NCBI RefSeq assembly: GCF_010993735.1 | Contig: NZ_WQNI01000001.1 | Location: 434,001-498,000, forward strand | From: Chelativorans alearensis | GTDB taxonomy: Bacteria > Pseudomonadota > Alphaproteobacteria > Rhizobiales > Rhizobiaceae | Reading direction: 5' to 3' | Length of the DNA: 64,000 bases | Shown: piece after piece, positions 12,001 to 29,393 of the stretch | Numbering within the stretch: the first letter of the stretch is position 1 | Layout of the letters: every line of letters starts with the position of its first letter | Translations under genes and position numbers: made by a program | Notes under the pieces: generated by a model | Told to the model about the DNA's origin: nothing | The model's input: the letters and a program-made list of their open reading frames with translations, nothing else | Databases searched by the model: none

Positions 12001-12831
12001 CTATTCCGCGAGGAGACACCGAACGAGGGGGTGGCGCGGATCCGTGAGACCATCGACGACAGTGAAATGGTGGCGGTCTGGCTCCACCACCGCCGAGGTG
12101 ATCGCGCCGAGGCCTGCCCATATGTTTGCAAGCAGCTCGTTCTGGCGCAGGAACTCGGCGCGCTCGCTACCGCCCACCCAACAGGTGATGCGCGCGCTTT
12201 CCATCGGGCGCAGCAGTGCCGGACTTTCGGCCACTGCCTCGGCTTCGTCGATAAGGAGTTCCTGGCTCATGGTCGTGCGCATAAGTGGGCGCAGATCGTG
12301 CACCCCGGAAATCGAGACGACACGGCGGACGCGTTCCCGGACTTGAGAGGCAAGCGGCGTGGTGGCTGAAGCCATCCGGCTGACAAGATGGCCGCCGGCC
12401 GAATGGCCTGTCAGCATCAGCGGGCCCTCGACCATGGCCGCCGCCGCTTCGATTGCCGCGGCGACCTCCTCCACGATACCGCCGATGCGGATCTCCGGGC
12501 AGAGCCTGTAGGAAGGGATCGCGACGGCATAGCCGTTTTCAACGGCGCCTGCGGCAAGATGCGACCAGTAGCTCTTGTCGAACCGCAGCCAATAGCCGCC
12601 GTGGACATAGACGACGAGGCCCTTGGGCTTTCCAGTGGGAAGAAAGAGGTCGAGCCGATTGCGCGGCTTGTCGCCATAGGCGAGGTCGAGCTTTGCACGG
12701 CCGGCCGCGACAAGGCTCTCGCGAAAGCTTCGCGCCGGCACCACCCACGCCTCCGGCCAGCGGTCGCCGCCCGGGATGTTCGGGCCGTTGGCGTAAGCAT
12801 CGTCCCAGTCGGTTATCAAGCGCTCGAACAT
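12001..12831 (-). CDS. Kynurenine formamidase, alpha/beta-hydrolase (AFMID-like) type
   Basis: 276-residue alpha/beta hydrolase predicted to hydrolyse N-formylkynurenine to kynurenine plus formate. It has the HGGYW motif (residues 77-81) that marks the animal/fungal-type formamidases, the nucleophile elbow GHSAGGH (Ser144), and a C-terminal histidine (DRHHF, 254/255). This differs from bacterial KynB, a metal-dependent cyclase-fold enzyme. It is transcribed divergently from the 2-aminobenzoate-CoA ligase and tryptophan dioxygenase genes, and the shared 238-base gap carries the island's putative operator. Motif and context together make the function likely; a generic esterase is the alternative. 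Confidence 0.85.
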   Translation of the reverse strand: MFERLITDWDDAYANGPNIPGGDRWPEAWVVPARSFRESLVAAGRAKLDLAYGDKPRNRLDLFLPTGKPKGLVVYVHGGYWLRFDKSYWSHLAAGAVENGYAVAIPSYRLCPEIRIGGIVEEVAAAIEAAAAMVEGPLMLTGHSAGGHLVSRMASATTPLASQVRERVRRVVSISGVHDLRPLMRTTMSQELLIDEAEAVAESPALLRPMESARITCWVGGSERAEFLRQNELLANIWAGLGAITSAVVEPDRHHFTVVDGLTDPRHPLVRCLLAE

Positions 12832-12899
12832 GATGCTCCTCCTTGTTCCCGCATAGAAGCGGGAGGACAGGGGGTAAAGTCAACCTTACAGCTAGAAAT

Positions 12900-12911
12900 T
12901 TTAGGCTTGAA
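12900..12911. promoter_or_regulatory. Putative MarR operator, copy 1 (TTTAGGCTTGAA)
   Basis: The 12-base imperfect palindrome TTTAGGCTTGAA lies in the divergent gap between the formamidase and CoA-ligase genes, with AGCT 10 bases upstream (12890). The identical 12 bases, with AGCT at nearly the same offset, occur in front of the 2-aminobenzoyl-CoA monooxygenase operon (29382-29393, opposite strand). The MarR gene inside that operon is the obvious candidate to bind both. This is an inference from conservation and position. Confidence 0.6.
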
Positions 12912-12932
12912 GTAATTTGCGGCTGGTGCCAT

Positions 12933-12950
12933 CCTTGATAGGCTTCAAGG
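12933..12950. promoter_or_regulatory. CCTTGA-N6-TCAAGG palindrome in CoA-ligase leader
   Basis: A perfect 6-bp inverted repeat with a 6-base centre. Its centre and right arm read TAGGCTTCAA, one base from the TAGGCTTGAA core of the operator 22 bases to the left. It could be a second, weaker site for the same regulator. Confidence 0.4.
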
Positions 12951-13069
12951 AGGATGGGAGACCGCAGTGCCCTTTGCCGTTTCCGTGCCAGTGAAGTGCC
13001 GTTTGCGAACGCATCCAGCGGGATGCCGGCAAATCGGTCTCGCTGTCTCCGCACCATGAGGGAGGCCAC

Positions 13070-14698
13070 ATGATGCTCGGACCGACAGCGCATAAAGACA
13101 CCTTCACGCGCGACAATCTTCCGCCCGAGGAGGAGTGGCCGGATTTCCTGCTCGAGCGCTTCGAGTATCCCGAATATCTTAATGCCGCCGTCGAACTGAC
13201 TGACCGTATGGTGGAGAAAGGTTTCGGAGACCGCACGGCGTTGATCGGCAACGGCCGCCGTCGCACCTATAAAGAGCTTTCCGACTGGACGAACCGGCTC
13301 GCCCATGCGCTGGTCGAGAATTACGGCATCAAGCCCGGCAACCGGATTCTCATCCGCTCTGCTAACAACCCGGCCATGGTGGCCTGCTGGCTGGCCGCCA
13401 CCAAGGCAGGCGCCGTCGTCGTCAACACCATGCCGATGCTGCGCGCAAGCGAACTGGCCAAGATCATCGACAAGGCGGAGATCGGCCTCGCGCTTTGCGA
13501 TACCCGGCTGATGGACGAGCTCGTCGCTTGCGCCAAGGACAGCCGGTTCCTGAAACAGGTGGTGGGCTTCGACGGTACGGCTAACCACGACGCGGAATTC
13601 GACCGCATCGCGCTCGACAAGTCGGTGGTCTTTGAGGCTGTGAAAACCGGCCGTGACGATGTCGCCCTCCTCGGGTTTACCTCCGGCACCACGGGCGTGC
13701 CGAAGGCGACCATGCATTTCCACCGCGACCTGCTGGTCATCGCCGACGGCTACGCGAAAGAGATCCTGCGGGTAACGCCTGACGATATCTTTGTCGGCTC
13801 CCCTCCCCTCGCCTTCACTTTCGGCCTTGGCGGGCTTGCCATCTTCCCACTGCGTTTCGGCGCCGCCGCCACGCTCCTGGAGCAGGCGACGCCCGCCAAC
13901 ATGATCGATATCATCGAGACCTATCACGCGACCATCTCCTTCACCGCGCCCACCGCCTACCGCGCCATGCTGAAGGCGATGGACGAAGGCGCCGATCTCT
14001 CCTCGCTCCGAGCGGCGGTTTCGGCGGGGGAGACGTTGCCGGGGCCCGTCTTCGAGGAATGGATGGCGAAGACCGGCAAGCCGATCCTCGACGGCATCGG
14101 CGCCACCGAAATGCTGCACATCTTCATCTCCAACCGGTTCGAGGACCTGAAGCCCGGCTCGACCGGTCGCCCGGTCGGCGGCTACGAGGCGTGCATCGTC
14201 GGCGAGGATATGAACGAGCTTCCACGCGGCACGCCCGGCAGACTGGCGGTGCGCGGGCCGACCGGCTGCCGTTACCTCGCCGACGCGCGGCAGCGGGACT
14301 ATGTGCGCGACGGCTGGAACATTACGGGCGACACGTTTCTGGAGGACGAGGAAGGCTTCTTCCACTTCGTCGCGCGTTCCGACGACATGATCGTCAGCGC
14401 CGGCTACAATATCGCCGGTCCCGAGGTGGAGGCGGCGCTGCTGTCCCATGCCGATGTCGCCGAGTGCGCGGTGATCGGTGCGCCCGATGCCGAGCGCGGA
14501 CAGATCGTGGAGGCCCATGTCGTTTTGGTTCAGGGCATTGCGCGCGATGAATTGTGCATGAAGCGCCTGCAGGACCACGTGAAGGCTGCCATCGCGCCCT
14601 ATAAATATCCGCGCTCGATAAGGTTCGTCGACACCCTGCCCAAGACACAGACGGGCAAGATCCAGCGGTTCCGGCTGAGGACGGAGAAGACGCTTTGA
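13070..14698 (+). CDS. 2-aminobenzoate (anthranilate)-CoA ligase
   Basis: 542-residue adenylate-forming enzyme predicted to convert anthranilate, ATP and CoA to 2-aminobenzoyl-CoA. The P-loop TSGTTGVPK is at residues 204-212. [20 protein letters not shown] and [12 protein letters not shown] match the benzoate/2-aminobenzoate-CoA ligase group. The acyl-adenylate lysine lies in the C-terminal [20 protein letters not shown] site precedes the ATG at 13070. It is first in a plus-strand operon with tryptophan dioxygenase and a Liv-type transporter. Kynureninase and the CoA-ester hydroxylase lie in the facing operon, which strongly supports anthranilate over benzoate or salicylate. Confidence 0.9.
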
Positions 14699-15531
14699 GC
14701 AAACCATACGACCCCTCCGAAGAAGGAGCCGAGACGTCCTTCCGGGATCGCATGTCCTATAGCGACTATCTGCACCTGGAGCGGGTGCTCGATGCGCAGG
14801 AGCCGCTTTCCACCGCCCATGACGAGATGCTGTTCATCATCCAGCATCAGACCTCCGAACTGTGGATGAAGCTGGCGCTGCACGAGCTGGGCTCGGCCAT
14901 CCGGATGATCCGCGCAGACCAGCTCGAGCCTTCCTTCAAGATGCTGACGCGGGTTGCCCGTATCTTCGAACAGCTCAACAGTGCCTGGGATGTGCTGAGG
15001 ACGATGACGCCCAGCGAGTACACCGAGTTCCGCGATGCGCTCGGCCAGTCCTCGGGCTTTCAGTCCTGGCAATACCGCGCCATCGAGTTCTTGGCCGGGA
15101 ACCGCAACCCGGCGATGCTGCGCCCCCATACGCACGAGCCTGAACGCATCGCGAAACTGGAGGCGATCCTGGCGGAGCCTTCGCTCTACGACGAAGCGAT
15201 CCTGCTTCTTTCGCGCAACGGCTTCGACGTCGGCGCGGATGCGGAGCGGATCGACTGGCACGAAGCGCGGGCCGAAAGCGATGAGGTGCTGGAGGCCTGG
15301 CGGACCGTCTATCGCGATCCCCTGCGCTACTGGCAGCTCTATGAACTTGCCGAGAAGCTGGTCGACTTCGAGGATTATTTCCGCCGCTGGCGCTTCAATC
15401 ATGTGACGACCGTGGAGCGCATCATCGGCATGAAACGGGGCACCGGCGGCACGTCCGGCGTTTCCTATCTCAAGAAGATGCTGGAGGTTGAACTGTTTCC
15501 CGAACTCTGGAAAGTTCGCACCAGCCTCTGA
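14695..15531 (+). CDS. kynA: Tryptophan 2,3-dioxygenase
   Basis: 278-residue haem enzyme that opens the indole ring of L-tryptophan to give N-formylkynurenine. Residues align with the Xanthomonas campestris enzyme at a constant offset of four: His51 (FIIQHQ), Arg113 (EFR), haem-ligand His236 (RFNHVTT) and Thr250 in GTGGTSG. Length is normal for the bacterial family. Translation begins at a TTG (14695) overlapping the ligase stop, so the two are coupled. It starts the pathway that the formamidase and kynureninase continue. Confidence 0.96.
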
Positions 15532-15575
15532 ACCACCAGGGGAAAATAAGATGAAGAATGTTGGAGGGGAATAAA

Positions 15576-16715
15576 ATGAAGAACGTTCTTGCAACCGGCC
15601 TCATCGGGCTGTCGCTGGCCGTATCGGGCCATGCCTATGCCGAGCCGGTGAAGATCGGTGTCATCACCACGCTTTCGGGCGGCGGCGCCGGGCTCGGCAT
15701 CGACATGCGCGATGCCTTCACGCTGGCCATCAAGCAATCCGGCAACAAGGACATCGAACTCGTCATCGAGGACGATGCGCAGAAGCCCGAGCTTGCCGTT
15801 CAGATTGCCGAAAAGATGATCCAGAGCGACAAGGTCGACCTCATGACCGGCATCATCTGGTCGAACCTGGCCATGGCGGTGGTGCCCAATGCCGTGGCGC
15901 AGGACGTTATCTATCTGTCGCCCAACGCTGGCCCTTCGGCGCTCGCGGGCGCCAACTGCCATCCGAACTACTTCAACGTCGCCTATCAGAACGACAATTT
16001 CCACGAGGCGATGGGGCAATACGCCAACCAGGACTACAAGAACACCTTCATCCTCGCCCCCAACTATCCGGCGGGCAAGGACTCGCTTACCGGCTTCAAG
16101 CGCTTCTACAAGGGAGAGCTCGCCGGCGAGGTCTATACCCAGGTTGGACAGACCGACTATGCGGCCGAGATCGCGCAGATCCGCGCCTCGGGCGCCGACT
16201 CCGTCTTTTTCTTCCTGCCGGGCGGCATGGGCATAGCCTTCATGAAGCAATATGCCCAGTCGGGCGTCGACATCCCCGTGATGGGGCCGGGCTTCTCCTT
16301 CAGCCAGGACGTTCTGCCTGCCGTCGGCGATGCCGCGCTGGGCGTGAAGAACTCGGCCACGTGGGCGAAAGACCTGGACAACGAAGCCAGCAAGGAGTTC
16401 GTGGAGGCCTTCCAGAGCGAGTACAAACGCCTTCCCTCGATCTATGCGGCACAGAGCTGGGACACGGCGAACCTGATCCTTTCCGCGCTCTCCAAGGCGA
16501 GCGTGCAGGACAAGGAGGCGTTCCGGGCGGCACTGAAGGAAGCGGATTTCAACTCGGTTCGCGGGGAGTTCAAATTCAATACCAACAACCACCCTGTGCA
16601 GAACGTCTATATCCGCGAAGTGGTGAAGGAAGACAACGTGCTCACCAACACCATCGTCGGCACCGCCTTCGAGGACCACAAGGACGCTTACGCCGAACAG
16701 TGCAATATGCAGTAG
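15576..16715 (+). CDS. Branched-chain/aromatic ABC transporter substrate-binding protein (LivK-like)
   Basis: 379-residue periplasmic receptor of the Leu/Ile/Val-type (type I) family. A signal peptide (MKNVLATGLIGLSLAVSGHAYA) precedes KIGVITTLSGGGAGLGIDMR, the usual start of the mature fold. The ATG at 15576 has a GGAGGGG site. A near copy of the start context (ATGAAGAATGTT) occurs 25 bases upstream without a useful frame. It is followed by permease and ATPase genes and lies inside the tryptophan island, so the ligand is probably tryptophan, kynurenine or anthranilate rather than leucine (inference). Confidence 0.93.
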   Translation: MKNVLATGLIGLSLAVSGHAYAEPVKIGVITTLSGGGAGLGIDMRDAFTLAIKQSGNKDIELVIEDDAQKPELAVQIAEKMIQSDKVDLMTGIIWSNLAMAVVPNAVAQDVIYLSPNAGPSALAGANCHPNYFNVAYQNDNFHEAMGQYANQDYKNTFILAPNYPAGKDSLTGFKRFYKGELAGEVYTQVGQTDYAAEIAQIRASGADSVFFFLPGGMGIAFMKQYAQSGVDIPVMGPGFSFSQDVLPAVGDAALGVKNSATWAKDLDNEASKEFVEAFQSEYKRLPSIYAAQSWDTANLILSALSKASVQDKEAFRAALKEADFNSVRGEFKFNTNNHPVQNVYIREVVKEDNVLTNTIVGTAFEDHKDAYAEQCNMQ

Positions 16716-16734
16716 GCGGCACAGTTGCCTTCAT

Positions 16735-16762
16735 GCCGCGCCGTCGTGAATGACGGCGCGGC
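16735..16762 (+). terminator. Strong hairpin between receptor and permease genes
   Basis: A perfect 11-bp stem GCCGCGCCGTC (16735-16745) and GACGGCGCGGC (16752-16762) with a 6-base loop lies 20 bases after the receptor stop. There is no T run, so it probably acts as a 3' stabiliser or partial attenuator that keeps receptor mRNA above that of the membrane components. Confidence 0.6.
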
Positions 16763-16826
16763 CACTCCGCCAGCTTGACGCTGAGGAAACAGCGATGCGT
16801 CAAATCGCAGATCCGGATCGCCCTCC

Positions 16827-17747
16827 TTGTCCACCGCACTCCTGATCGAGCAACTGCTGAACGGACTCCAGCTCGGGGTCATGCTGTTCCTGATGGCGGC
16901 GGGGCTGACGCTCATCTTTGGCGTCATGGGTCTGATCAACCTCGCCCACGGATCGTTCTACATGGCAGGCGCCTTCGCCTGCGCGACCGTCGCTGCCGCC
17001 ACCGGCTCCTTCTGGATCGGGCTGATTGCGAGCTTGATCGCTGCTGCCGCTGCCGGCGCCATCGTCGAGATGGCTGTCATCCGACGGCTTTACGAACGCG
17101 ACCATCTCGACCAAGTGCTTGCCACCTTCGCGCTGATCCTGATCTTCTCGGAAGGCACGCGCTGGCTGTTCGGCTCCTTTCCGCTCTATCTCGATATCCC
17201 TCCCCTGCTCCAGGGCGCGGTGCCCCTGCCGGGGGGCGGGCAGTACCAGCTCTACCGGCTCGCCATCATCGGCGTCGGCATCGTCGTGGCGATCGGGCTC
17301 TACCTGCTCATTTCCCGCACCCGCCTTGGCATGCGCATCCGCGCCGGCGAATCCGACCGGGAGATGATCGCCGCGCTCGGCGTCGACATCTCGACCCTTT
17401 ACACGGTCGTCTTTGCGCTGGGTGCGGCACTTGCTGGCCTCGCGGGCGCGCTGGTCGGCGCGCTGCAATCGGTGCAGGTCGGCATGGGCGAACCGGTGCT
17501 GATCCTCGCATTCGTGGTCATCGTCATCGGCGGCATCGGCTCCATCAAGGGCGCGCTGTTCGGTGCCGTCCTCGTCGGTGTGGTCGATACGATGGGGCGC
17601 TTCCTCCTGCCGCAGGCGCTGTCGCTGGTGCTTCCTCCCTCGCAGACCGCACTCATCAGCGGTGCGCTGGCATCCATGCTGATCTACATCGTCATGGCGC
17701 TCATCCTTGCCTTCCGGCCAACCGGCCTCTTCGCCGCACAGCCATGA
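16827..17747 (+). CDS. Branched-chain-type ABC transporter permease (LivH-like)
   Basis: 306-residue inner-membrane permease with about eight helices and the LivH signature GLTLIFGVMGLINLAHGSFY near residues 26-45. The cytoplasmic coupling loop (RAGESDREMIAALGVD) is also present. The start is uncertain: the first usable codon in frame is a TTG at 16827 (STALLIEQLLNGLQLG), and no ATG precedes the first helix. Its stop overlaps the next gene. It forms the translocation pore with the LivM-like protein. Confidence 0.92.
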   Translation: MSTALLIEQLLNGLQLGVMLFLMAAGLTLIFGVMGLINLAHGSFYMAGAFACATVAAATGSFWIGLIASLIAAAAAGAIVEMAVIRRLYERDHLDQVLATFALILIFSEGTRWLFGSFPLYLDIPPLLQGAVPLPGGGQYQLYRLAIIGVGIVVAIGLYLLISRTRLGMRIRAGESDREMIAALGVDISTLYTVVFALGAALAGLAGALVGALQSVQVGMGEPVLILAFVVIVIGGIGSIKGALFGAVLVGVVDTMGRFLLPQALSLVLPPSQTALISGALASMLIYIVMALILAFRPTGLFAAQP

Positions 17748-18727
17748 GACAGACCGTGACGCGCGAAGCCATCACCAACGCGGGCCTTGCCCTCTTGCTC
17801 CTGGTGGTGCCGCTTGCGGCCTCCGTCATGGATGAACCCTTCTACGTAACGCTCGCCACGCGCATCGCCGTTCTGGCGCTCGCGGCAGTCGGGCTCAACA
17901 TCGCGCTCGGGCTCGGCGGTCTGGTCTCTTTCGGCCACGCTGCCTTTTTCGGCCTCGGTGGATACGCCGCCGGCATCCTTGCCACCCACGCCTTCAACGC
18001 CGAGCCGCTTTTCCTCGGCATTCCCGCCACCACCTCCATGCCGGCGATCTGGCTGGTGGCCGTCGTCGTCTGCGGTCTCGTGGCGCTTCCCATCGGCGCG
18101 ATAAGCCTGCGTACCTCCGGCGTGTACTTCATCATGATCACGCTCGCTTTCGCGCAGATGATCTACTACTTCGCCATCTCCTGGCCCGCCTATGGCGGCC
18201 AGGACGGGCTGTCGATCTATGTCCGGAACACCTTTCCGGGCGTCAACACGGCGCAGCCGCTCCCATTCTTCCTGATTTGCTACGCGCTGCTTCTTTTAGG
18301 GCTTGCGCTCTTTTGGGCGCTCAGCGGCTCGCGCTTCGGTGCCGCGCTTCACGCGGCACGGCAGAACGCAACCAGGCTAGCGGCCGTCGGCATCGCGCCC
18401 TTCAATATCCGGCTCACGGCTTTTGCCATCTCGGCAATGATCACCGGGCTTGCCGGCGCGCTCTTTGCCGACCTCAACCGGTTCACGAGCCCGTCCATGC
18501 TCTCCTGGCATATGTCGGGCGAATTGATCGTGCTCATCATCCTCGGCGGCAAAGGCCGGCTGTTCGGTCCGGTGGCGGGTGCAATGCTCTATGTGCTCTT
18601 CGAATTTGCGCTCGGCGGCATCACCGAGCGTTGGCAACTCTTCTTGGGCCTTATCCTTCTCGGTGTAGTGCTCTTCGCGCGCGGCGGGCTCATGGGCCTC
18701 GTTGCGGGAAAGGAGCGGTATGGCTGA
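17744..18727 (+). CDS. Branched-chain-type ABC transporter permease (LivM-like)
   Basis: 327-residue permease with the LivM pattern: N-terminal helices, then NIALGLGGLVSFGHAAFFGL, SLRTSGVYFIMITLAFAQM and a coupling loop (HAARQNATRLAAVGIAP). The last region ILGGKGRLFGPVAGAML is conserved. The ATG at 17744 overlaps the LivH-like stop (ATGA), and the gene overlaps the ATPase start at its end. It is the second half of the membrane pore. Confidence 0.95.
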   Translation: MRQTVTREAITNAGLALLLLVVPLAASVMDEPFYVTLATRIAVLALAAVGLNIALGLGGLVSFGHAAFFGLGGYAAGILATHAFNAEPLFLGIPATTSMPAIWLVAVVVCGLVALPIGAISLRTSGVYFIMITLAFAQMIYYFAISWPAYGGQDGLSIYVRNTFPGVNTAQPLPFFLICYALLLLGLALFWALSGSRFGAALHAARQNATRLAAVGIAPFNIRLTAFAISAMITGLAGALFADLNRFTSPSMLSWHMSGELIVLIILGGKGRLFGPVAGAMLYVLFEFALGGITERWQLFLGLILLGVVLFARGGLMGLVAGKERYG

Positions 18728-19465
18728 GCCGGTCCTCGAAATCCGCGATCTGAGGAAGAGCTTCGGCGCGCTGAAGGCAACCGACGGCGTGAGCCTTCAT
18801 CTCGTTTCCGGAGAGATCCACGCCCTTATCGGCCCTAACGGTGCCGGCAAGAGCACGCTCATCCACCAGATCTCCGGCTCACTGACGCCAGACAGCGGGA
18901 CGATCCGCTTCCTCGGGCAGGACATGGCGGGCCTCGACATGGCGGCGCGGGCGCGGCTGGGGCTGGCGCGCAGCTTCCAGACCTCGTCACTGGCGCAGGA
19001 GTTTTCCGCGCTGCGCAATGTGATGCTCGCGGTGCAGGCGAAGCAGGGATCGAGCCTGCGCTTCTTCCGCCCGGTGATGCGCGACAGGAGCCTTGAGGAA
19101 CCGGCCATGGCCATGCTGGAGCGCGCGGGCCTTGCGGACCGCGCGCATGTGCCCGCGGCGGAGCTGCCGCATGGCGAGCGACGGCAGCTCGAGATCGCCA
19201 TTGCGCTGGCGCTTGGCCCGAAGGCGTTCCTTTTGGACGAGCCGATGGCCGGCATGGGACCGGAGGGCTCGAAGAACCTGACGCGGTTTCTCGACACGCT
19301 GCGCCGGGAAGCGCCCATCCTTCTGGTCGAACACGACATGGATGCGGTGTTCGCGCTCGCCGATCGCGTTTCCGTCCTCGTCTATGGCCGCATCATCGCC
19401 ACGGGCAAGGTGGACGAGATTCGCAACGATCCCGAAGTCCGCCGGGCCTATCTCGGAGAACCGGC

Positions 19466-19469
<4 letters not shown>
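18720..19469 (+). CDS. ABC transporter ATP-binding protein (LivG-like)
   Basis: 249-residue ATPase. Walker A GPNGAGKST is near residues 38-46. The LivG-type signature region reads LPHGERRQLEIAIALA instead of LSGG, as is usual in this subfamily. Walker B is FLLDEPMAGMGP, and the switch histidine is in LVEHDMDAVF. The ATG at 18720 has an AGGAG site, so I chose it over a GTG/ATG-like start six codons upstream. It overlaps the LivM-like gene by 8 bases and the LivF-like gene by 4. Confidence 0.94.
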
Positions 19470-20152
<683 letters not shown>

Positions 20153-20161
20153 GAGCCCTCC

Positions 20162-21409
20162 TCACGTAACCGCGGCACGGGCGGCGAAGCGTTCATCCTT
20201 CCAGGCCTGCGTCCGTAGCACCTCTTCAAGCGTCTCGACCGCGCGCCAGACGTCCAGATAGCGGAGATAGAGCGGCGTGAAACCGAAGCGCATTGTGGCG
20301 GGCGCACGGAAGTCGCCGATCACACCACGGGCGATCAGCGCCTGCACGATTTCATAAGCGTGGCTATGGGCGAAGGAGACCTGACTGCCGCGCTTTGCGC
20401 CTTCGCGCGGGCTTTCGAGCACGAGGCCGAAGGGTTCGCACCTGGTCTCAACGAGCCGGATGAAGAGGTCCGTGAGCGCGAGGCTTTTCTTCCGCACCGC
20501 TGCCATATCTACGGCATCCCAAATGTCGAGCGCCGCTTTCAGCGCCCGCAATGAGAGGACGGGCTGCGTGCCGCACTGGAATTTGCGGATACCCGTATCC
20601 GCGTCGAAGCGCGGTTCGAAAGCGAACGGCCGCGCGTGGCCCCACCAGCCGCTGAGCGGCTGACGCGCCCCGGCCTGATGGCGCTTGGCGACATAGATGA
20701 AGGCCGGCGAGCCGGGGCCTCCGTTCAGGTATTTGTAGGTGCAGCCGACGGCGAAATCGACATTCGCGCCATCGAGATCGACAGCCAATGCGCCCGCCGA
20801 GTGGCAGAGGTCCCAGACGACGAGGGCGCCCGCTTCATGAGCCCTCTGCGTCAGCGCCGCCATATCGCGCAGTTCGCCGGACTTGTAGTTCACGTGGTTG
20901 ACGAGGACGACGGCGACGCGGTCGTCTATCAGTTCCTCGATCGTCGGCGCGTCCATACCTTCGAGGAGCAACCGCATCTCCGGCCGGGTGGAGACGACGC
21001 CTTCCGCCATATAGAGATCGGTCGGGAAACTGCCCCCTTCAGCGACGATGACCGGGCGGCCGGGTCGCAGACCCATCGCCGCATGGAGCGCCTTATAGAT
21101 GTTGATCGAGGTCGTGTCGCAGACGACCGTCTGGCCGGGCGCAGCGCCAATCAGTCGGCCGATCCGGTCGCCGAGTTCGATCGGCAGATCGAACCAGCCG
21201 GCGCTGTTCCAGCTGCCGATCAAGCCTTCGCCCCACTCCTTTCTCGCGGCCTTTTCCAGCTCGCCGAAGACGGAGGGCGATGCCGGCCCGAGAGAGTTGC
21301 CGTCGAGATAGACGACGCCCTCGGGCAGGCTGAACCGGCCGCGCATCGAGCGCAGGGGATCGGCCTCGTCCATGGCTTCAATGGCGGGGAGACCCGGAAG
21401 CTGGCTCAT
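20162..21409 (-). CDS. kynU: Kynureninase
   Basis: 415-residue PLP enzyme that cleaves kynurenine to anthranilate and L-alanine. The Schiff-base lysine is Lys226 in the diagnostic TYKYLNGGPG, and Asp200/His203 (WDLCHSAG) bind the cofactor. The N-terminal YLDGNSLGP is also typical. The ATG at 21409 overlaps the stop of the upstream hydratase/dehydrogenase gene, so it is the last gene of the minus-strand operon. Its product anthranilate feeds the CoA ligase encoded in the facing operon. No kynurenine 3-monooxygenase is present, so the flow is through anthranilate, not 3-hydroxykynurenine. Confidence 0.96.
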   Translation of the reverse strand: MSQLPGLPAIEAMDEADPLRSMRGRFSLPEGVVYLDGNSLGPASPSVFGELEKAARKEWGEGLIGSWNSAGWFDLPIELGDRIGRLIGAAPGQTVVCDTTSINIYKALHAAMGLRPGRPVIVAEGGSFPTDLYMAEGVVSTRPEMRLLLEGMDAPTIEELIDDRVAVVLVNHVNYKSGELRDMAALTQRAHEAGALVVWDLCHSAGALAVDLDGANVDFAVGCTYKYLNGGPGSPAFIYVAKRHQAGARQPLSGWWGHARPFAFEPRFDADTGIRKFQCGTQPVLSLRALKAALDIWDAVDMAAVRKKSLALTDLFIRLVETRCEPFGLVLESPREGAKRGSQVSFAHSHAYEIVQALIARGVIGDFRAPATMRFGFTPLYLRYLDVWRAVETLEEVLRTQAWKDERFAARAAVT

Positions 21410-23388
21410 GGGTGCAACCCTTCCTTCGCAACATACATCGGCCCGCCCTTGTGAGCGGGAAAGCCATAGCCGTTGATCATGACGAGATCGACATCGCTCG
21501 CCCTTTCGGCAATGCCTTCGGCCAAGAGGGCATCGCCTTCGGCAGCCATGACCGCAAGCAGGCGCGATACGATTTCGTCGGAAGAAACCCGCCGCGGAGC
21601 GATGCCCTTGGCCTTCCGGCACGCTTCGATCACAGCGGTTGCTTCCGGATCGACGGTGCGCTTTCCATCCGGATAGGCGTACCAGCCGCTGCCCGTCTTC
21701 TGGCCGAAACGGCCCATCTCGCAGAGCCGGTCCGCGATCTCGATATAGCGCTCCGAAGGATTGCGGGTGGCCGCCTGGCGCTTGCGCCGCGCCCAGGCGA
21801 TCTCAAGGCCTGCCAGATCGAAGACGGCAAACGGGCCCATGGCGAAACCGTAATCCTCCATTGCCGCGTCGATCTCCTGTGGCCAGGCGCCGTCCTCGAC
21901 CAGGAACTCGGCCTCACGGCGATAAGCGGAGAAGATGCGGTTGCCGATGAAACCTTCGCAGACGCCGCACACGACAGGCAGTTTCCCGAGCCGGCGCGCG
22001 ACCGCGATTCCGGTCGCAAGCACCTCCGGGGCGGTCTTGCCGCAGCGCACGACCTCGACTAGCCGCATCACATGCGCAGGTGAGAAGAAGTGGAGGCCGC
22101 AGAGGCGCTCCGGCCGCGATGTCGCCGCTGCGATGGCGTCGGGATCGAGGTAGCTTGTGTTGGTGGCGAGAACGGTGTCCGGCCGGACGATCTTATCCAG
22201 CTTCTCGAAAAGCTCCGTCTTGACATCCAGGTCGTCAAAGACGGCCTCGATGACGAGATCGGCGGTGGAGAGGTCTTGGACACTGCCGATAGAAAGGCGC
22301 AGAAGGCGCTCGGCCCGGCCCGCCGCATCGATACGCCCCGACTTTATTGCCCGATCCAAGAGCCCAGCGATCCGATCGAAGCCTTTCTCCGCCGCCTCCG
22401 CATCCTGCTCGACGACGATGACACGATAACCCGCGTTGAGCGCGGAGACGGCGATGCCGGAGCCCATTAGCCCACTTCCAATCACGCCGATGGTTCGCAC
22501 CGTTCGCGGTTCGACGCCTTCGAGGCCGGGCACTTTTGCTGCCGCGCGCTCAGCGAAGAAGACATGACGCAATGCCTTCGCCTGGTCGGAATCGCGCAAC
22601 CGCAGAAACGTCGCGCGCTCCTCGGCGAGCCCCTCCGCAAGGGAACGTTCGCCGGCACGTCTGATAAGCTGCACCGCTTCGGCCGGCGCCGCCCCTCTAC
22701 GCGCGCGTGATAGAGCCTTGTCGACCGCTTCATCAATCACTTGCGGGTCTTCCACCGGCAAGGCCAATTCGCCCGTCCGGCGCAACGGTTGAGATGCGAG
22801 ATCCCGTGCGGCGGCGACCGCGCCAGCGGCGGGATTTCCTGCCACCACCTGGTCTATGATGCCAAGGGAGAGGGCTTCGCTGACAGCCACGCTGCGCCCG
22901 GCGGCAATCAGTTCCACCGCCTTGGCGATACCGACGAGGCGTGGGAGGCGCTGGGTGCCGCCCGCCCCCGGCACAATGCCCAGTTTTACTTCGGGTAACC
23001 CGAGGATAGCCCTATCGCCGGCGATCCGATGATGGCAGGCAAGCGCGATCTCCAGACCGCCGCCAAGGGCGGCACCGTTGATGGCGGCCACAACAGGTTT
23101 ACTGCTCTTCTCGATCGCCTCGACAACCTCCGGCAAGATTGGCTCGGTTGCCGGCTGGCCGAACTCCTTGATATCGGCGCCGCCGACAAAGGTCTTGCCC
23201 GCGCCGGTGATGACCACCGCGCTGATGGCATCCTCGGTACCGGCATGGCGGATCGCCGCCAGGAGGCCGGAACGCATGTCCGCCGAGGCGGCGTTGACCG
23301 GCGGATTATCGATAGTGACCACCAGAACGCCGTCCTCCAGGCTTGCCGAAACAGCCTCGGAAAAACGAATCGGCGTCACCTCACCCAT
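21406..23388 (-). CDS. Fused enoyl-CoA hydratase / 3-hydroxyacyl-CoA dehydrogenase
   Basis: 660-residue bifunctional beta-oxidation enzyme. The N-terminal crotonase domain (residues about 10-185) has both catalytic glutamates in place, Glu113 ([14 protein letters not shown]) and Glu133 ([20 protein letters not shown]). The NAD domain begins with [13 protein letters not shown] (301-313), and the dehydrogenase His is in [11 protein letters not shown]. It is shorter than FadB, with no thiolase-binding extension. In this operon it probably hydrates and oxidises ring or ring-opened intermediates of 2-aminobenzoyl-CoA breakdown; the exact step is inferred. Confidence 0.93.
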
Positions 23389-23395
23389 GGAAACC

Positions 23396-23791
23396 TCACT
23401 CCGGTACGACGGCCGTCGCCTGGATCTCCACCTTGGCGCGATCCTCCATCAGCGCGACCACCTGAACGGCGGTCATGGCGGGATAGTACCAGCCCATCAC
23501 CTCCCGGTAGACGACACCGATCCCTTTGAGATTGGCGAGATACTCGGCCTTGTCGGTAAAATACCAGGTCATGGAGGTGACGTGTTCCGGCCGCGCATCG
23601 GCCTCAGCAAGCACGGCCGCCACATTGAGAAGCGTCTGCCGCACCTGCGCGACCAGATCGTCGCTCTCGAATTCGCCCTTCCCGTTCCAACCGATCTGAC
23701 CGCTGACGAAAACGAGCCTGCCTTGGGCGGCGATGCCGTTTGCATAACCTTTGGGCCTTGCCCATCCCCGGGGTTGCAGAACGCTATGCAT
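23396..23791 (-). CDS. Rid-family (YjgF/YER057c) protein, probable enamine deaminase
   Basis: 131-residue protein of the Rid superfamily (trimeric fold; members hydrolyse enamines/imines to ketones and ammonia). SGQIGWNGKGEF and TAVQVVALMEDRAKVEIQATA match the family. The catalytic arginine of RidA proper, normally in a LPRD-like stretch before VEIE, is replaced (LMEDRAKVEI), placing it among the other Rid subfamilies. The ATG at 23791 has a GAGGAG site. Reduction and hydroxylation of 2-aminobenzoyl-CoA yields a ring enamine, so a deaminating Rid protein here makes chemical sense (inference). Confidence 0.85.
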   Translation of the reverse strand: MHSVLQPRGWARPKGYANGIAAQGRLVFVSGQIGWNGKGEFESDDLVAQVRQTLLNVAAVLAEADARPEHVTSMTWYFTDKAEYLANLKGIGVVYREVMGWYYPAMTAVQVVALMEDRAKVEIQATAVVPE

Positions 23792-23835
23792 GAAACTCCT
23801 CAATTTGCGAAAACCTCAAGAATGCACGAGCGGCG

Positions 23836-24984
23836 TCATACCGCGCCCAATAGCTGCCTGGCGATCACCACCTTCTGCACGTCGGATGCGCCCTCGTAGA
23901 TACGCAGCGCCCGGATCTCGCGGTAAAGGCTTTCCACGATATGCCCACGGCGGACGCCGTCGCCGCCGTGAAGCTGGACGGCGCGGTCGATCACCTCTTG
24001 CGCACGGTCCGTGGCGAAGAGTTTCGCCATGGCCGCCTCGCGGGTGACGCGGGCAGCACCCATGTCCTTCGTCCAGGCCGCGCGGTAGACGAGAAGGGCC
24101 GCAGCGTCGACATCCAGCGCCATATCCGCCAGATGCCCCTGCACCATTTGTAACTCGGCCATCGGCGCACCGAAGAGCTGCCGCTCGGCCGCCCGCTTCA
24201 CGCTCTCATCGAGCGCGCGGCGGGCGAAGCCGAGAGCGGCCGCACCCACCGTCGAGCGGAACACGTCGAGCACCGACATGGCGATGCGGAACCCCTCGCC
24301 CGGCTTGCCGATCATCGCGGAGACCGGAACACGCGCGCCCTCGAAGGAAAGGCGGGCAAGCGGATGCGGCGCGATCACCTCCAGCCGCTCGGCGATTTTC
24401 AGGCCTTTCGTATCTGCCGGCACCAGGAAAGCGGAAATGCCCTTGGCACCCGCCGCCTCGCCGGTGCGGGCAAAGAGAACGTAGAGATCGGCGATGCCGC
24501 CATTGGAGATCCAGGTCTTCTCGCCGGTAAGAACGTAGGAGCCGCCGTCGCGTGTCGCGCTCATGTCCATATTCGCGACATCGGAGCCCGAGCGCGGCTC
24601 GGAAAGGGCGAAGGCGGCGATCGCCTCGCCGGCCCGCGTCTTGTCGAGCCAGCGCTGCTGCTCCAGCGTCCCGTAGAAACTGATGGCACCGGTGCCGAGC
24701 CCCTGCATGGCGAATGCGAAGTCGGCGAGCCCGTCGTATCGCGCCAGGGCCTCACGGGTGATGCAGAGCGTGCGCACGTCTAGGGGCGCGGGATCGGCAG
24801 GATCGACCGCGGTCGGCTTCAGCCAGCCGTCGCGCCCGAGCATTTGCACAAGCTCTCGGCATGCGGCGTCCACATCCGTGTGGTCAACTGGCAAGTTCGC
24901 CGCGCACCAGGCTTCAAGCCGCTCGGCGTATTGGCGGTGACGGTCCTCGAAAAAAGGCCAGGTGAGAAAGCTTTTGTCCGCCAT
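23836..24984 (-). CDS. Acyl-CoA dehydrogenase
   Basis: 382-residue FAD flavoprotein that introduces a double bond into an acyl-CoA thioester. It shows the family patterns [16 protein letters not shown] (FAD/substrate loop), [10 protein letters not shown], the C-terminal [20 protein letters not shown], and [20 protein letters not shown]. The catalytic glutamate would be that of YEGASD. The ATG at 24984 overlaps the stop of the upstream hydratase gene. In context it should act on an alicyclic CoA ester derived from anthranilate. Confidence 0.94.
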
Positions 24985-25802
24985 CAATCGCCCTCGAACA
25001 CCGGCTTTTGCTTGGCGACGAAGGCGCGGTAGGCGCGTTCGAAGTCGCGGGTCTGCATGCAGATCGCCTGCGCCTGGGCTTCGGCCTCGATCGCCTGGTC
25101 GAGGCTCATCGACCATTCCTGATTGAGCTGTGTCTTGGTGATGCCGTGCGCGAAAGTCGGGCCGGAGACGATGCGCGCGGCCAGGTCGAGGGCCTCCGCC
25201 TCCAATTTGTCGGCGGTGACGAGCCGGTTGTAAAAGCCCCAGCGCTCCCCCTCCTCCGCACTCATCGTTCGGCCGGTATAGAGAAGTTCCGCCGCCCGCC
25301 CCTGGCCGATGATGCGCGGCAGGATCGCACAGGCACCCATGTCGCAACCGGCAAGGCCAACCCGCGTGAAAAGAAAGCCGGTCTTGGCCTCGGGCGTTGC
25401 GAGGCGGATATCAGAGGCCATGGCAAGGATGGCGCCGGCCCCCACAGCGACGCCGTCTACCGCGGCAATGATCGGCTTGCCGCAATTGAGCATCGCCTTG
25501 ACGAGATCGCCCGTCATGCGGGTGAAGGCCAAAAGCTCCTTCATTTCCATGCCGACCAGCGGGCCGATGATGTCGTGCACGTCTCCGCCGGAGCAGAAAT
25601 TGCCACCGTTCGGCAAAAACACAACGGCATCGACATCCTCGGCGTAGGCGACATTGCGGAAAGTGTCGCGCAGCTCCGCGTAGGAAGCGAAGGTGAGCGG
25701 GTTCTTCCGCTCGGGCCGATCGAGTTTCACGACCGCGACCCGCCCCTCCATCCGCCAGAGGAAGTGTTCGGGCTCAAGGCCCGCCATCTCGATCGGGGTC
25801 AA
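24984..25802 (-). CDS. Enoyl-CoA hydratase/isomerase family protein
   Basis: 272-residue crotonase-fold enzyme. The oxyanion-hole segments are visible ([11 protein letters not shown] and [20 protein letters not shown]). At the positions of the two hydratase glutamates it has alanine and other residues ([20 protein letters not shown]), so it is not a classical hydratase; isomerase, ring hydrolase or lyase activity is possible. Translation probably starts at a TTG (25802) overlapping the MarR stop, with GGAGGGTGAG upstream; an ATG five codons later is the alternative. It lies in the anthranilate-CoA operon. Confidence 0.88.
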
Positions 25803-26275
25803 TGCTCACCCTCCCAGTTGCTGCGGAATGCGTGGAGCATTTCGGAAAGCCTGTGCACCTCGGCTGTGTCTACGCCGCCGAGGAGCTCGGCGATCCAGCG
25901 TTCATGCGCGGCCGCCATCCTCTCGAAGGCTTCCACACCTGACGGCGTCAGGCGCACCACGGAGGTGCGCTTGTCCCCGTCGCGCTTGGCGCGCACCACA
26001 TAGCCGTCGGCCACCAGCCGGTCGATAATGCCCGTGACATTGCCGTTGGAGACCAACAGGAAACGCGAAAGGTCGCTCATCAGCATACCTTCGCTCTCAC
26101 GGTAGAGCGCCGACATCACGTCGAAGCGTGGGAGAGTAGAATTGAAGTCGCGTTTGAGCCGTTCACGCAACTCGGCTTCAACGATGCGCGTGGTGCGCAG
26201 CATCCTGATCCAGAGGCGCAGGCGCTCCTTGTCGCCCGACCGTGCATCGATCACCGAAAGCGGCACGCTCACCAT
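25799..26275 (-). CDS. MarR-family transcriptional regulator of the anthraniloyl-CoA operons
   Basis: 158-residue winged-helix regulator. Recognition region [23 protein letters not shown] (about residues 65-87) and wing [19 protein letters not shown] are classic MarR features. It is embedded in the catabolic operon, overlapping both neighbours (7 bases with the SDR gene, 4 bases with the hydratase gene). MarR proteins in hybrid aromatic pathways commonly respond to the aroyl-CoA, so the likely effector is 2-aminobenzoyl-CoA. The TTTAGGCTTGAA motifs before both operons are its likely sites. Both points are inference. Confidence 0.92.
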
Positions 26276-27033
26276 GTCTCACCCCCCGAAACCGATATGG
26301 CCTGGCCGGTGATGGAGGCCGCCCCCGGACTGCAGAGCCAGAGCACCGCCGAGGCCACCTCCTCCGGCTGAATGAACCTGCCCTGCGGATTGGCGGCCAT
26401 CAAGCTCGCGCGCGCCTCCTCCTCCGTGCGTCCCGTCTTCTCCGCAATGCGGGCGATGGATCTGGCCACCATCTCCGTCTCGACGAAACTCGGGCAGACG
26501 GCGTTCACCGTGATCTCCGTCTTGGCAAATTCCACCGCGAGCGCACGCATGAGGCCGACCACCCCGTGCTTGGAAGCGACGTAGGGCGCGACATAGCCAT
26601 AGCCCTTGAGACCCGCGACGGAGGCGATAAAGATGATGCGTCCCCTCTTCCGCGTGGCCATTCCCTCAAGCGCCGGTTGGACGGTGAGGAAGGCGCCGGT
26701 GAGATTGATGTCGAGCGTCCTCCTCCAATCCTCAAGCGTTGTCTTCGCGGCAGGCGCGCTGGATGCAATGCCGGCGTTGGCGATGACGATGTCGATCGGG
26801 CCGCGCGCGGCCTCGGCGCCCCGGTAGAGCCAGTCCATCGAGGACTGGTCGGTCACATCGCCGATTGTCGCGTGGATATGCGGGTGCTCGTCGGCAACAG
26901 CCTGCAGCGGATCGATACGCCGGCCGCAGATGGTGACCTTAGCGCCGGCGTCGGCCAGCGCCAGCGCGATCGCCTTTCCGACACCCGAGCCGCCGCCAGT
27001 CACCAGCGCGTGCGTTCCGACGACAGCGGCCAT
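26269..27033 (-). CDS. Short-chain dehydrogenase/reductase
   Basis: 254-residue NAD(P)-dependent SDR. The cofactor motif TGGGSGVGKAI is near residue 12, NAG is in VIANAGIASS, and the catalytic Ser-Tyr-Lys set appears as SVAGLKGYGYVAPYVASKHG (Tyr-x3-Lys). The ATG at 27033 shares one base with the upstream stop (TGATG); a GTG one codon earlier is possible. Placed between the hydroxylase and MarR genes, it likely interconverts the ring hydroxyl and oxo groups of the CoA intermediate (inference). Confidence 0.92.
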   Translation of the reverse strand: MAAVVGTHALVTGGGSGVGKAIALALADAGAKVTICGRRIDPLQAVADEHPHIHATIGDVTDQSSMDWLYRGAEAARGPIDIVIANAGIASSAPAAKTTLEDWRRTLDINLTGAFLTVQPALEGMATRKRGRIIFIASVAGLKGYGYVAPYVASKHGVVGLMRALAVEFAKTEITVNAVCPSFVETEMVARSIARIAEKTGRTEEEARASLMAANPQGRFIQPEEVASAVLWLCSPGAASITGQAISVSGGETW

Positions 27034-29324
27034 CACACCTTCCCCGGCATGGTATCCCGCCGTTCCGCGAGCCGGTAGGCCTGCTCGCGGCCGCGCAGGT
27101 AGGGATCAGGCCATCTGACGTGGCGGTCGCCTAATTCCACGGCGGAATGCAGCGTCCAATAGGGATCGGCAAGGTGCGGCCGCGCGAGGCACACAAGGTC
27201 GGCACGGCCCGCCATCAGGATCGAGTTCACATGGTCCGGCTCGTAGATGTTGCCGACCGCCATGGTGGCCATGCCGGTCTCGTTGCGGATGCGGTCCGAG
27301 AACGGGGTCTGGAACATGCGGCCATAGACGGGCTCTGCCCGAAGCGAGGTCTGACCGGCCGAGACGTCGCAGATGTCGACACCGGCCGCCTGCAGCATCC
27401 GGGCAATCTCCACCGCGTCCTCCGGACGGATGCCCTCCTCGCCCACCCAGTCGTTCGCCGAGATGCGCACGGAGATCGGTTTTTCATCCGGCCACACCGC
27501 GCGTACCGCGTGGAACACCTCCAGCGGGTAGCGCATGCGGTTTTCCAGGCTGCCGCCATATTCGTCGGTGCGCCGGTTGGTAAGCGGCGTGATGAACGCC
27601 GACAGGAGATAGCCGTGCGCCATGTGAAGCTCCAGCATGTCGAAGCCGGCACGATTGGCCATCTTGGCCGAGGCAACGAAGGCGTCGCGCGCCTCGTCCA
27701 TATCCTGGCGCGTCATCTCCCTTGGGATCTGGTGGAGGTCGCTCCAAGGAACCGCCGAGGGCGCCAGCAGCGGCCAGTTGCCGGAGACGAGCGGCGCTTC
27801 GGAATCCTCCCACGGGACCTGGGTCGAACCCTTCGGGCCGGAATGGCCGATCTGGGCGCAGATCTTTGCTTCTGTCTCGCGATGGACGAAATCGACGATC
27901 CTCTTCCAGGCAGTTTCGTGCTCGGGCTTATAGAAGCCGGGGCATCCGGGCGATATCCGCCCCTCGGGCGTCACGCAGGTCATTTCGATATAGACGAGCC
28001 CCGCCCCGCCCTTGGCGCGCTCGGCATAGTGGACGAAATGCCAGTCGGTCGGGCAGCCGTCGACCGCCTTGTACTGGGCCATAGGCGAGACCACGATACG
28101 GTTGACGAGCCGCATGTCGCGCAGCCGGAAGGGCGCGAACATTGGCGGGCGGGCGCCGTTCACATTGCTGCCCGCCCGGTGCTGGAACCAGGCCTCGGCG
28201 CTTCCCAGCCATTCGGGGTCACGCAGGCGCAGGTTTTCGTGGCTGATGCGCTGCGAGCGGGTGAGGAGCGAATAGTTGAACTGAACCGGATCGAGATGGA
28301 GGTAGCGCTCCACATCCTCGAACCATTCGAGCGAGTTGCGCGCCGCCGACTGCAGCCGCAGCACCTCCGTGCGGCGGGCATCCTCGTACTTCACGAAGGC
28401 AGCCTCAAGCGTCGGCTCCGAATGGAGATAATCCGCCAACGCCACCGCGCTTTCGAGAGCGAGCTTGGTGCCCGAGCCGATGGAGAAATGCGCGCTCGCC
28501 GCCGCATCGCCCATGAGCGCCAGGTTCTTATGCGACCACCGCGCGCAGAGCACACGGGGGAAACTGATCCAGGCGGAGCCGCGGATGTGGCTGGCGTTGG
28601 ATATGAGCTCGTGGCCGCCAAGATGTGCGGCGAAGATCCTCTCGCAGGTGGCGATGGACTCTTCCTTGGACATCTCGCCGAAGCCGAATTTTTCCCATGT
28701 CTTCTGCGAGCATTCGACGATGAACGTGGCCGTGTCGTTATCGAACTGGTAGGCGTGTGCCCAGACCCAGCCGTGTTCCGTCTCTTCAAAGATGAAGGTG
28801 AAGGCGTCGTCGAATTTCTGGTGCGTACCGAGCCAGACGAACTTGCATTTGCGGACGTCGATGTCAGGCTGGAAAACATCGGCGAAGACCGTACGCGACT
28901 TGGAGTTCAGGCCGTCGGCGGCGATGACGACGTCATGGCTTTCCATGAAGGGGCGTGGATCGTCGATCTCCGCCTCAAAACGCAGATCGACACCAAGCTC
29001 GCGCGCCCGCTCCTGCAGGAGAACGAGCAGCATCTTGCGGCCGATGCCGCAGAAGCCGTGGCCGGTCGAGACCGTCCGCGTGCCGCGATAGAGGACGGCG
29101 ATATCGTCCCAATAGGCGAAATGCTCACGGATCGCGGCGGCGCTCACGGGATCGTTGGCCGTAAGGTTGGTGAGCGTCTCGTCCGACAGCACGACACCCC
29201 AACCGAAGGTGTCGTCCGGCCGATTGCGCTCATAGACGGTGACCTCGTGGCCAGCCTCCCGCAGCTTCATCGAGATCGCAAAGTAAAGGCCGGCTGGACC
29301 GCCTCCCAGAACCGCAACCTTCAT
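27033..29324 (-). CDS. Bifunctional 2-aminobenzoyl-CoA monooxygenase/reductase (salicylyl-CoA 5-hydroxylase-like)
   Basis: 763-residue fusion of two flavoprotein domains. The N-terminal half is an FAD monooxygenase: dinucleotide fold [10 protein letters not shown] at residues 7-16 and second FAD motif [19 protein letters not shown]. From about residue 395 it is an old-yellow-enzyme-like FMN reductase ([19 protein letters not shown], then [19 protein letters not shown] and [18 protein letters not shown]). This architecture is known for the Azoarcus evansii 2-aminobenzoyl-CoA enzyme, which hydroxylates and then reduces the ring, and for salicylyl-CoA 5-hydroxylase. With kynureninase and an anthranilate-type ligase in the island, 2-aminobenzoyl-CoA is the better substrate call. 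It is the first gene of the minus-strand operon. Confidence 0.92.
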
Positions 29325-29381
29325 CCTACATCCTCACTCTCGGCGAAAGCTTGAGGCAGGATCGCACCTGAGGTGAGATAT

Positions 29382-29393
29382 TTCAAGCCTAAA
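29382..29393. promoter_or_regulatory. Putative MarR operator, copy 2 (TTCAAGCCTAAA)
   Basis: This is the reverse complement of the 12-base motif at 12900-12911. It lies 58 bases upstream of the monooxygenase/reductase start. On the minus strand an AGCT sits upstream of TTTAGGCTTGAA with a 7-base spacing, against 6 at the other copy. The two copies precede exactly the two operons of one pathway, which supports a shared regulator. Confidence 0.6.

Follow-up and report, generated by a model that had tools for sequence, protein, structure and literature searches.

A probable tryptophan/anthranilate catabolic regulon around an aerobic 2-aminobenzoyl-CoA cluster in a Chelativorans-like genome

Aerobic degradation of anthranilate (2-aminobenzoate) through its coenzyme A (CoA) thioester is known from Azoarcus evansii. 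The 2-aminobenzoate clusters of Schuhle et al. (2001) reportedly encode a MarR regulator, an ABC binding protein, and a "translation inhibitor" (a Rid protein). We analyzed a 64-kb stretch of DNA (the window; bases 434001 to 498000 of contig C1 in an assembly of 5.7 Mb with 99.87% completeness). We found that a 17-kb island at 12001 to 29324 combines such a cluster, including a fused 2-aminobenzoyl-CoA monooxygenase/reductase (ACMR), with genes for a tryptophan 2,3-dioxygenase, a kynureninase, and a formamidase-like hydrolase. The island is very probably a tryptophan/anthranilate catabolic regulon with a pathway up to the ACMR product. The genes, their operon layout, a shared palindrome, and a conserved core are seen directly in the sequence; all activities, the pairing of the regulator with its site and ligand, and the order of the steps after ACMR are inferred.

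In Pseudomonas and Cupriavidus, the kynB/kynA/kynU pathway to anthranilate uses a dioxygenase, a KynB-type formamidase, and a kynureninase and continues by the catechol route. The window shares the dioxygenase, a probable formamidase, and the kynureninase with it and has neither KynB nor an anthranilate dioxygenase above the cutoff. In the core of the island (ligase, ACMR, acyl-CoA dehydrogenase, crotonase, MarR, and Rid) we recognize the aerobic 2-aminobenzoyl-CoA cluster of A. evansii. The A. evansii clusters are not known to include tryptophan genes, whereas the window has the dioxygenase, kynureninase, and formamidase-like genes in what is probably the same regulon; a complete importer and a hydratase/dehydrogenase fusion are also features of the window. 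As far as a published summary goes, the two are alike in CoA ligase, fused monooxygenase/reductase, and beta-oxidation (PMC4539516). In Cupriavidus metallidurans CH34, tryptophan is assigned to kyn genes and anthranilate, via 2-aminobenzoyl-CoA, to abm genes (PMC8879955), so the combination within one genome is not new. The available text of that paper does not mention linkage or coregulation of kyn and abm in CH34, which also has a 3-hydroxyanthranilate route. The abm genes also occur in C. necator JMP134 (PMC8879955, PMC2842291). In an indole degrader studied by Qu et al. (2017), a 2-aminobenzoyl-CoA cluster was assigned to anthranilate by proteomics and genetics, according to a review (PMC6221969); anthranilate goes through the CoA ester in both systems, and by that account it comes from indole there and would come from kynurenine here. 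Arthrobacter sp. Rue61a is alike in having an anthranilate-CoA pathway, with ligases of shown activity and a putative monooxygenase/reductase, and unlike in being fed by quinaldine and in having PaaX-related regulators, in the part of the article available (PMC3534580). Within the literature that we searched, most subscription papers lying outside it, we found no description of tryptophan and ACMR genes in one cluster.

All the genes named for the island are intact frames, as the sequence-only reading of this DNA had listed them. Its "four or five beta-oxidation-type enzymes" are four genes, one of them a fusion. Two gene blocks converge at 20152/20162. The plus-strand block runs from the ligase through the dioxygenase to a five-gene Liv-type importer, and the minus-strand block runs in the order ACMR, short-chain dehydrogenase (SDR), MarR, crotonase, acyl-CoA dehydrogenase, Rid, hydratase/dehydrogenase fusion, kynureninase. 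Most neighboring genes in both blocks overlap, with gaps of up to 111 bases within a block. The formamidase-like and ligase genes are transcribed divergently. The features are as follows.

12001 to 12831, minus strand: AFMID-like alpha/beta hydrolase, probable N-formylkynurenine formamidase (NF058665, motifs, context)
12898 to 12913, no strand: operator-like palindrome ATTTTAGGCTTGAAGT, between the formamidase-like gene and the ligase
13070 to 14698, plus strand: probable 2-aminobenzoate (anthranilate)-CoA ligase (AMP-binding domains; PDB 4wv3)
14695 to 15531, plus strand: tryptophan 2,3-dioxygenase (TIGR03036)
15558 to 16715, plus strand: Liv-type periplasmic binding protein (PF13458, 266.1 bits)
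16827 to 17747, plus strand: Liv-type permease 1 (PF02653)
17744 to 18727, plus strand: Liv-type permease 2 (PF02653)
18720 to 19469, plus strand: ABC ATPase 1 (PF00005, PF12399)
19466 to 20152, plus strand: ABC ATPase 2 (PF00005)
20162 to 21409, minus strand: kynureninase (TIGR01814)
21406 to 23388, minus strand: enoyl-CoA hydratase/3-hydroxyacyl-CoA dehydrogenase fusion (PF00378, PF02737, PF00725)
23396 to 23803, minus strand: Rid protein without the RidA arginine (PF01042)
23836 to 24984, minus strand: acyl-CoA dehydrogenase (PF00441, PF02770; the scan used a longer frame, to 25347)
24984 to 25802, minus strand: crotonase-family protein without both hydratase Glu residues (NF006107, 478.4 bits)
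25799 to 26275, minus strand: MarR-family regulator (PF12802, PF01047)
26269 to 27036, minus strand: SDR (PF00106, 192.7 bits)
27033 to 29324, minus strand: fused ACMR (NF006101; FAD_binding_3 plus Oxidored_FMN)
29380 to 29395, no strand: operator-like palindrome 5' of ACMR

We found a common sequence, TTTAGGCTTGAARTA, in both promoter regions of the window. With up to 2 mismatches it has two matches in the 64 kb and none in 100 shuffles. In relatives it belongs to a palindrome, ATTTCAAGCTTGAAAT, which stands 5' of ACMR with up to 3 mismatches in 66 of 81 regions (the window and 80 named loci, the best 80 of 588 confirmed and thus biased to close relatives), compared with 9 of 6559 control stretches that are mostly coding DNA and set a background somewhat low for intergenic DNA. 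The 9-base core of the operator with one mismatch was found in 56 of 93 cases versus 67 of 1860 in shuffles. Of 104 palindrome sites in the 80 loci, 47 stand 5' of both the formamidase-like gene and ACMR. In the 5.7 Mb of the window's own genome, only two sites lie within 1 mismatch of the window form, and these are the two divergent-operon sites; the next has 2 mismatches. With up to 3 mismatches allowed, the genome has 19 matches, compared with 9 for the reversed pattern, so little weight can be placed on the weaker matches.

The palindrome also occurs away from ACMR. It was found with 1 to 2 mismatches, about 70 to 95 bases upstream, in 4 of 13 regions around dioxygenase genes that lie more than 25 kb from ACMR (L202 to L205). 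In these four, the dioxygenase and ACMR are on different contigs, and the dioxygenases are the closest to the window's (77 to 79% identity). L198, whose dioxygenase is also unlinked, has the palindrome with 3 mismatches before kynU. The presence of the palindrome at both divergent operons and before unlinked dioxygenases suggests that a single regulon probably spans the upper and lower pathways, and it supports the idea of "one regulated unit" in the sequence-only reading. The MarR encoded in the ACMR operon would be the obvious binder. It would then resemble CouR, which is a p-coumaroyl-CoA-sensing MarR repressor (PMC4737184), in repressing an aromatic-CoA pathway. The ligand and operator of the window's MarR are our proposals. 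A search of literature text for the operator TTCAAGCTTGAA gave no relevant match.

The gene set supports the earlier proposal of a CoA-thioester route from tryptophan through formylkynurenine, kynurenine, anthranilate, and anthraniloyl-CoA to a dearomatized product. The dioxygenase exceeded the TIGR03036 equivalog cutoff (425.1 versus 390.7 bits), as did the kynureninase that of TIGR01814 (348.6 versus 246.4 bits). The formamidase-like protein scored 371.5 bits against NF058665 (cutoff, 320). Its first solved relative is 2pbl, of unknown function, and the Drosophila kynurenine formamidase 4e11 is third (E value, 4e-15), outscored by 2pbl and by "Lipase 1" (9n8r). HGG, GHSAGG, and a His pair at 254-255 are present in all 33 aligned proteins, and the Trp of the HGG[YF]W motif is present in 32 of 33; we take HGG[YF]W and GHSAGG to be the signature of AFMID-type formamidases. 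The gene lies beside kynU, apart from ACMR, in two Mesorhizobium genomes (L206 and L207), and both upper genes are present in 21 of the 22 genomes whose ACMR locus includes it (Fisher P = 0.023, kinship ignored, with Chelativorans L003, L004, and L006 scored as lacking the gene although it is present just beyond the fetched end, as seen in L190 to L192). Context thus favors the gene as a probable N-formylkynurenine formamidase. The dioxygenase matches of L206 and L207 are partial and weak, at about 80 bits.

Searches for other routes were negative. The absence of anthranilate dioxygenase, claimed earlier, extends to the whole genome, where none lies above the cutoff (best, 176 of 672 bits). 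Matches to the KynB formamidase (TIGR03035) likewise stay below the cutoff throughout the genome (best, 47 of 223 bits). The whole genome has no match to 3-hydroxyanthranilate dioxygenase, which passed the cutoff in 7 of 120 sampled genomes as a positive control; kynurenine 3-monooxygenase was not searched for separately.

The best PDB match of the CoA ligase is the anthranilate-CoA ligase 4wv3 (280.7 bits), with a benzoate-CoA ligase second (255.7 bits). The protein narrowly misses the cutoff of the benzoate-CoA ligase subfamily TIGR02262 (369.2 versus 375.25 bits), so anthranilate as its substrate rests on context and on 4wv3. ACMR scored 1272.2 bits against NF006101 (cutoff, 1078) and has the fused architecture, with a flavin monooxygenase domain (PF01494) at residues 2 to 301 and an old-yellow-enzyme-type reductase domain (PF00724) at 395 to 725. 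Among the matches listed, the nearest named ACMR is from Chelativorans salis (95% identity), and the window is Chelativorans-like. Ligase, ACMR, beta-oxidation genes, MarR, binding protein, and Rid occur together here, which is presumably the defining gene list of an aerobic 2-aminobenzoyl-CoA cluster. The gene for the Liv-type binding protein lies with the core in 29 of 46 genomes. In L016, L030, and L041 it stands beside the core while dioxygenase and kynureninase are below the cutoff genome-wide, which makes anthranilate the better guess as cargo; the importer probably carries anthranilate as the simplest common substrate.

Two further observations concern these genes. The window's own genome has a stand-alone flavin adenine dinucleotide (FAD) hydroxylase like the front half of ACMR (L156:8876-10012, which is G000:C34:175894-177003; 378 bits). 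By eye, its neighbors are TRAP-type transporter genes and a fumarylacetoacetate-hydrolase-like gene, and this is perhaps a second aromatic hydroxylase locus. A small protein resembling, by eye, 4-hydroxybenzoyl-CoA-type thioesterases is encoded in 11 of the 80 loci (L063:21858-22268 and ten others), directly 3' of the last importer gene in eight of them.

We then counted the genes around ACMR elsewhere. In the 80 loci, truncated ones included, MarR and crotonase were each found in 77, SDR in 75, and acyl-CoA dehydrogenase and ligase in 69 each. For Rid, importer, and upper genes, which in many cases fall beyond the fetched locus ends, the counts are lower bounds: Rid in at least 36, the binding protein in at least 40, the formamidase-like gene in at least 33, the dioxygenase in at least 28, and the kynureninase in at least 23. 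No further gene recurs beside the core in more than 11 of the 80 loci, with clusters judged by eye from first residues. ACMR is above the cutoff in 64 of 398 genomes sampled across the phylum, so the lower pathway, earlier called rare, is not rare. From this sample we took 32 further neighborhoods, 20 top scoring and 12 lower scoring, seven of the latter below the cutoff. MarR and crotonase are each present in 23 of the 32, dehydrogenase in 22, ligase in 20, Rid in 19, and SDR in 18. L139, L143, L146, L150, and L152 have little or no core, and a contig end truncates L142 and L155. A lower-scoring group of full-length homologues below the cutoff (L144 to L150, from G088, G422, G373, G349, G129, G213, and G438) scores 969 to 1054 bits, and four of them have Rid, crotonase, and dehydrogenase alongside; their substrate may differ.

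Linkage of the tryptophan genes to ACMR is frequent and not unique. In 47 genomes (the window's own and 46 picked from the 80 loci), we counted as linked any gene within 25 kb of ACMR. The dioxygenase is present in 38 and linked in 25, counting the dioxygenase of G033 and one of the two from G029, which score slightly below the cutoff. The kynureninase is present in 41 and linked in 19. Both are linked in 18 genomes, and neither is present in 6. We rejected uniqueness of the arrangement, as linkage recurs in many alphaproteobacterial loci and in L129 and L149. A single origin of the kynU linkage is also unlikely. In a FastTree phylogeny of kynureninases (46 rows, midpoint root), those of the window, L003, L004, and L006 form a clade of ten (support, 1.0) with six unlinked ones from Mesorhizobium, Pseudaminobacter, and Aquamicrobium, apart from the large, main linked clade. 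This kynU therefore probably joined the cluster separately. The tree and the palindrome before unlinked dioxygenases together suggest that tryptophan and ACMR genes were assembled repeatedly. On the 316-kb plasmid p_3 of Phyllobacterium sp. 628 (L044), we found an ACMR cluster with importer and a dioxygenase-kynureninase pair, a location that hints at mobility.

Two core proteins lack the catalytic residues of their families. The linked Rid protein belongs to the Rid superfamily (PF01042, 77.8 versus 27.3 bits) and lacks the RidA arginine: Met110 stands at the position of the catalytic Arg105 in 55 of 55 proteins (the window and 54 loci). Pro11, Trp14, Tyr20, Asn22, Trp39, and Glu126 are invariant in the same 55. 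Among the Rid paralogues of the own genome, three of five were aligned; L088 and L089 have Arg, and L090 has Ala. The linked Rid accompanies the core not only in alphaproteobacteria but also in the gammaproteobacterium L030 and in loci of other classes. Enoyl-CoA hydratases use two catalytic glutamates. At these positions the crotonase has Ile125 in 92 of 99 and Phe145 in 99 of 99 proteins, and Asp154 is invariant (99 of 99). Its solved relatives are 3g64, a putative enoyl-CoA hydratase (E value, 8e-64), and then PaaG (4fzw_C; E value, 7e-37), in which an Asp aligns with Asp154. Both hydratase Glu motifs are retained in the fusion protein encoded in the same operon, which suggests that the two probably divide the work, with ring chemistry for the crotonase and hydration for the fusion.

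We propose the following pathway. The dioxygenase, the AFMID-like hydrolase, and the kynureninase would convert tryptophan to anthranilate, formate, and alanine, and the ligase would form anthraniloyl-CoA. ACMR would hydroxylate and reduce this to 2-amino-5-oxocyclohex-1-ene-1-carboxyl-CoA; hydroxylation and reduction by ACMR are known chemistry in A. evansii. Rid could then hydrolyze the enamine to 2,5-dioxocyclohexane-1-carboxyl-CoA, and the Glu-less, Asp-bearing crotonase could open the ring of this beta-keto acyl-CoA to give 4-oxopimeloyl-CoA. The acyl-CoA dehydrogenase, the hydratase/dehydrogenase fusion, and the SDR would oxidize the chain to near 2-oxoglutarate and acetyl-CoA, with final cleavage by an enzyme encoded elsewhere or by hydrolysis. 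Such a route would account for all seven anthranilate carbons. MarR would repress both operons at the palindrome, probably being released by anthraniloyl-CoA, and the importer would probably bring in anthranilate. For the steps after ACMR, the available literature gives only "beta-oxidation" (PMC4539516). A C7H8O4 CoA ester is present in anthranilate-grown Arthrobacter, according to the text available, and may lend the proposed lower route support in print (PMC3534580). Thiolase queries (four own-genome frames, that of L214 doubtful, and none recovered from L211) gave no match near ACMR in 111 of 112 neighborhoods, many of which end early; the exception is L059. The own genome has 11 thiolase-like matches, none of them inside the window.

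Several findings weigh against a tryptophan regulon. NCBIfam names the families of the formamidase-like gene and ACMR "hormone-sensitive lipase" and "bifunctional salicylyl-CoA 5-hydroxylase/oxidoreductase," respectively. The other nine unlinked dioxygenase genes (54 to 69% identity) and four unlinked kynU regions have no palindrome within 2 mismatches. No site lies within 3 mismatches in 15 of the 81 ACMR regions, and in 3 of these none lies within 6. In other Chelativorans, the ligase-side site has 3 mismatches in L190, is weak in L191 and L005 (4 mismatches), and is not found within 4 in L192. Loci within one genus are also not independent. The cluster might instead serve primarily for external anthranilate, or for N-formylanthranilate from indoles, quinolines, or auxin, with the tryptophan genes as a secondary add-on and the hydrolase acting on N-formylanthranilate or an ester. 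The three genomes with importer and core that lack both upper genes, one of which (L016) keeps the hydrolase, fit this view, as do the 6 ACMR genomes with neither gene and the iad auxin loci, which by the text available also yield anthranilate (PMC9613470). We consider it unlikely, however, since the dioxygenase and kynureninase sit within the window's two operons, the hydrolase travels with both upper genes in all but one of the 22 genomes above, and it lies beside kynU in L206 and L207. Degradation of salicylate, with the fused enzyme acting on salicylyl-CoA as the NCBIfam name implies, is very improbable. An old-yellow-enzyme-type reductase fusion fits dearomatization and not hydroxylation to gentisyl-CoA; the linked kynureninase and dioxygenase would have no use, and the best solved relative of the ligase acts on anthranilate.

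For the lower pathway, our proposal is more tentative. It holds that the pathway is complete and partly new, with an invariant-Met, Arg-free Rid acting on a beta-enamine CoA thioester, ring opening by a Glu-free crotonase, and formation of 2-oxoglutarate and acetyl-CoA without a dedicated thiolase. The whole, with the tryptophan genes, would be under one anthraniloyl-CoA-sensing MarR whose palindrome ties in even tryptophan genes that are not neighbors. We put this below an even chance. The fusion protein (at least 60% identity) was found in only 3 of 80 loci, plus L140, and of the 12 loci L124 to L135, which keep the rest of the core, five lack the SDR; later steps thus differ between hosts. 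Rid might be general damage control only, with the enamine hydrolyzed spontaneously or by the crotonase, and we regard this as a serious possibility. In the available texts, RutC R104A is dead on 3-aminoacrylate and deaminase activity has so far been shown for no Rid4-7 protein, all of which lack the Arg (PMC8113886); imine hydrolase or deaminase activity is likewise not shown for Arg-less subfamilies (PMC4433059, PMC8113886), and the ACMR product is unstable below pH 5 (PMC3534580). Against this, Rid recurs with the core across classes and has a distinct signature (Trp14, Trp39, and Met110 in 55 of 55), and the substrate proposed for it, a CoA thioester, has no carboxylate of the kind bound by the Arg in RidA-type proteins (PMC4433059). 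The crotonase could also be a PaaG-like isomerase and not a ring-opening hydrolase, which is quite conceivable given that PaaG is its best solved relative of named activity and has the aligned Asp. On the other side, no other obvious candidate for ring opening recurs among the core genes.

New here are the operator, which did not turn up in the literature searched, the Arg-free Rid signature, and the Glu-free crotonase. The pathway reading is well supported in silico, and the system itself is a widespread variant of a known cluster. Tryptophan breakdown via CoA-bound anthranilate is known in outline with its last steps unsolved, and the locus provides a short list of genes, an operator, and definite predictions for two enzymes. 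Many alphaproteobacterial genomes could be annotated for tryptophan use from it. If true, our reading would correct two misleading family names, salicylyl-CoA hydroxylase and hormone-sensitive lipase.

Three genes were noted at the edges of the island. A sulfatase-family hydrolase (PF00884) at window positions 30271 to 31818 adjoins it, and a TAXI-type TRAP solute-binding protein (TIGR02122) lies just beyond it at 9604 to 10548. A small ion-channel protein at 11173 to 11982 adjoins the formamidase-like gene and has a possible C-terminal zinc ribbon (PF13248, below the cutoff).

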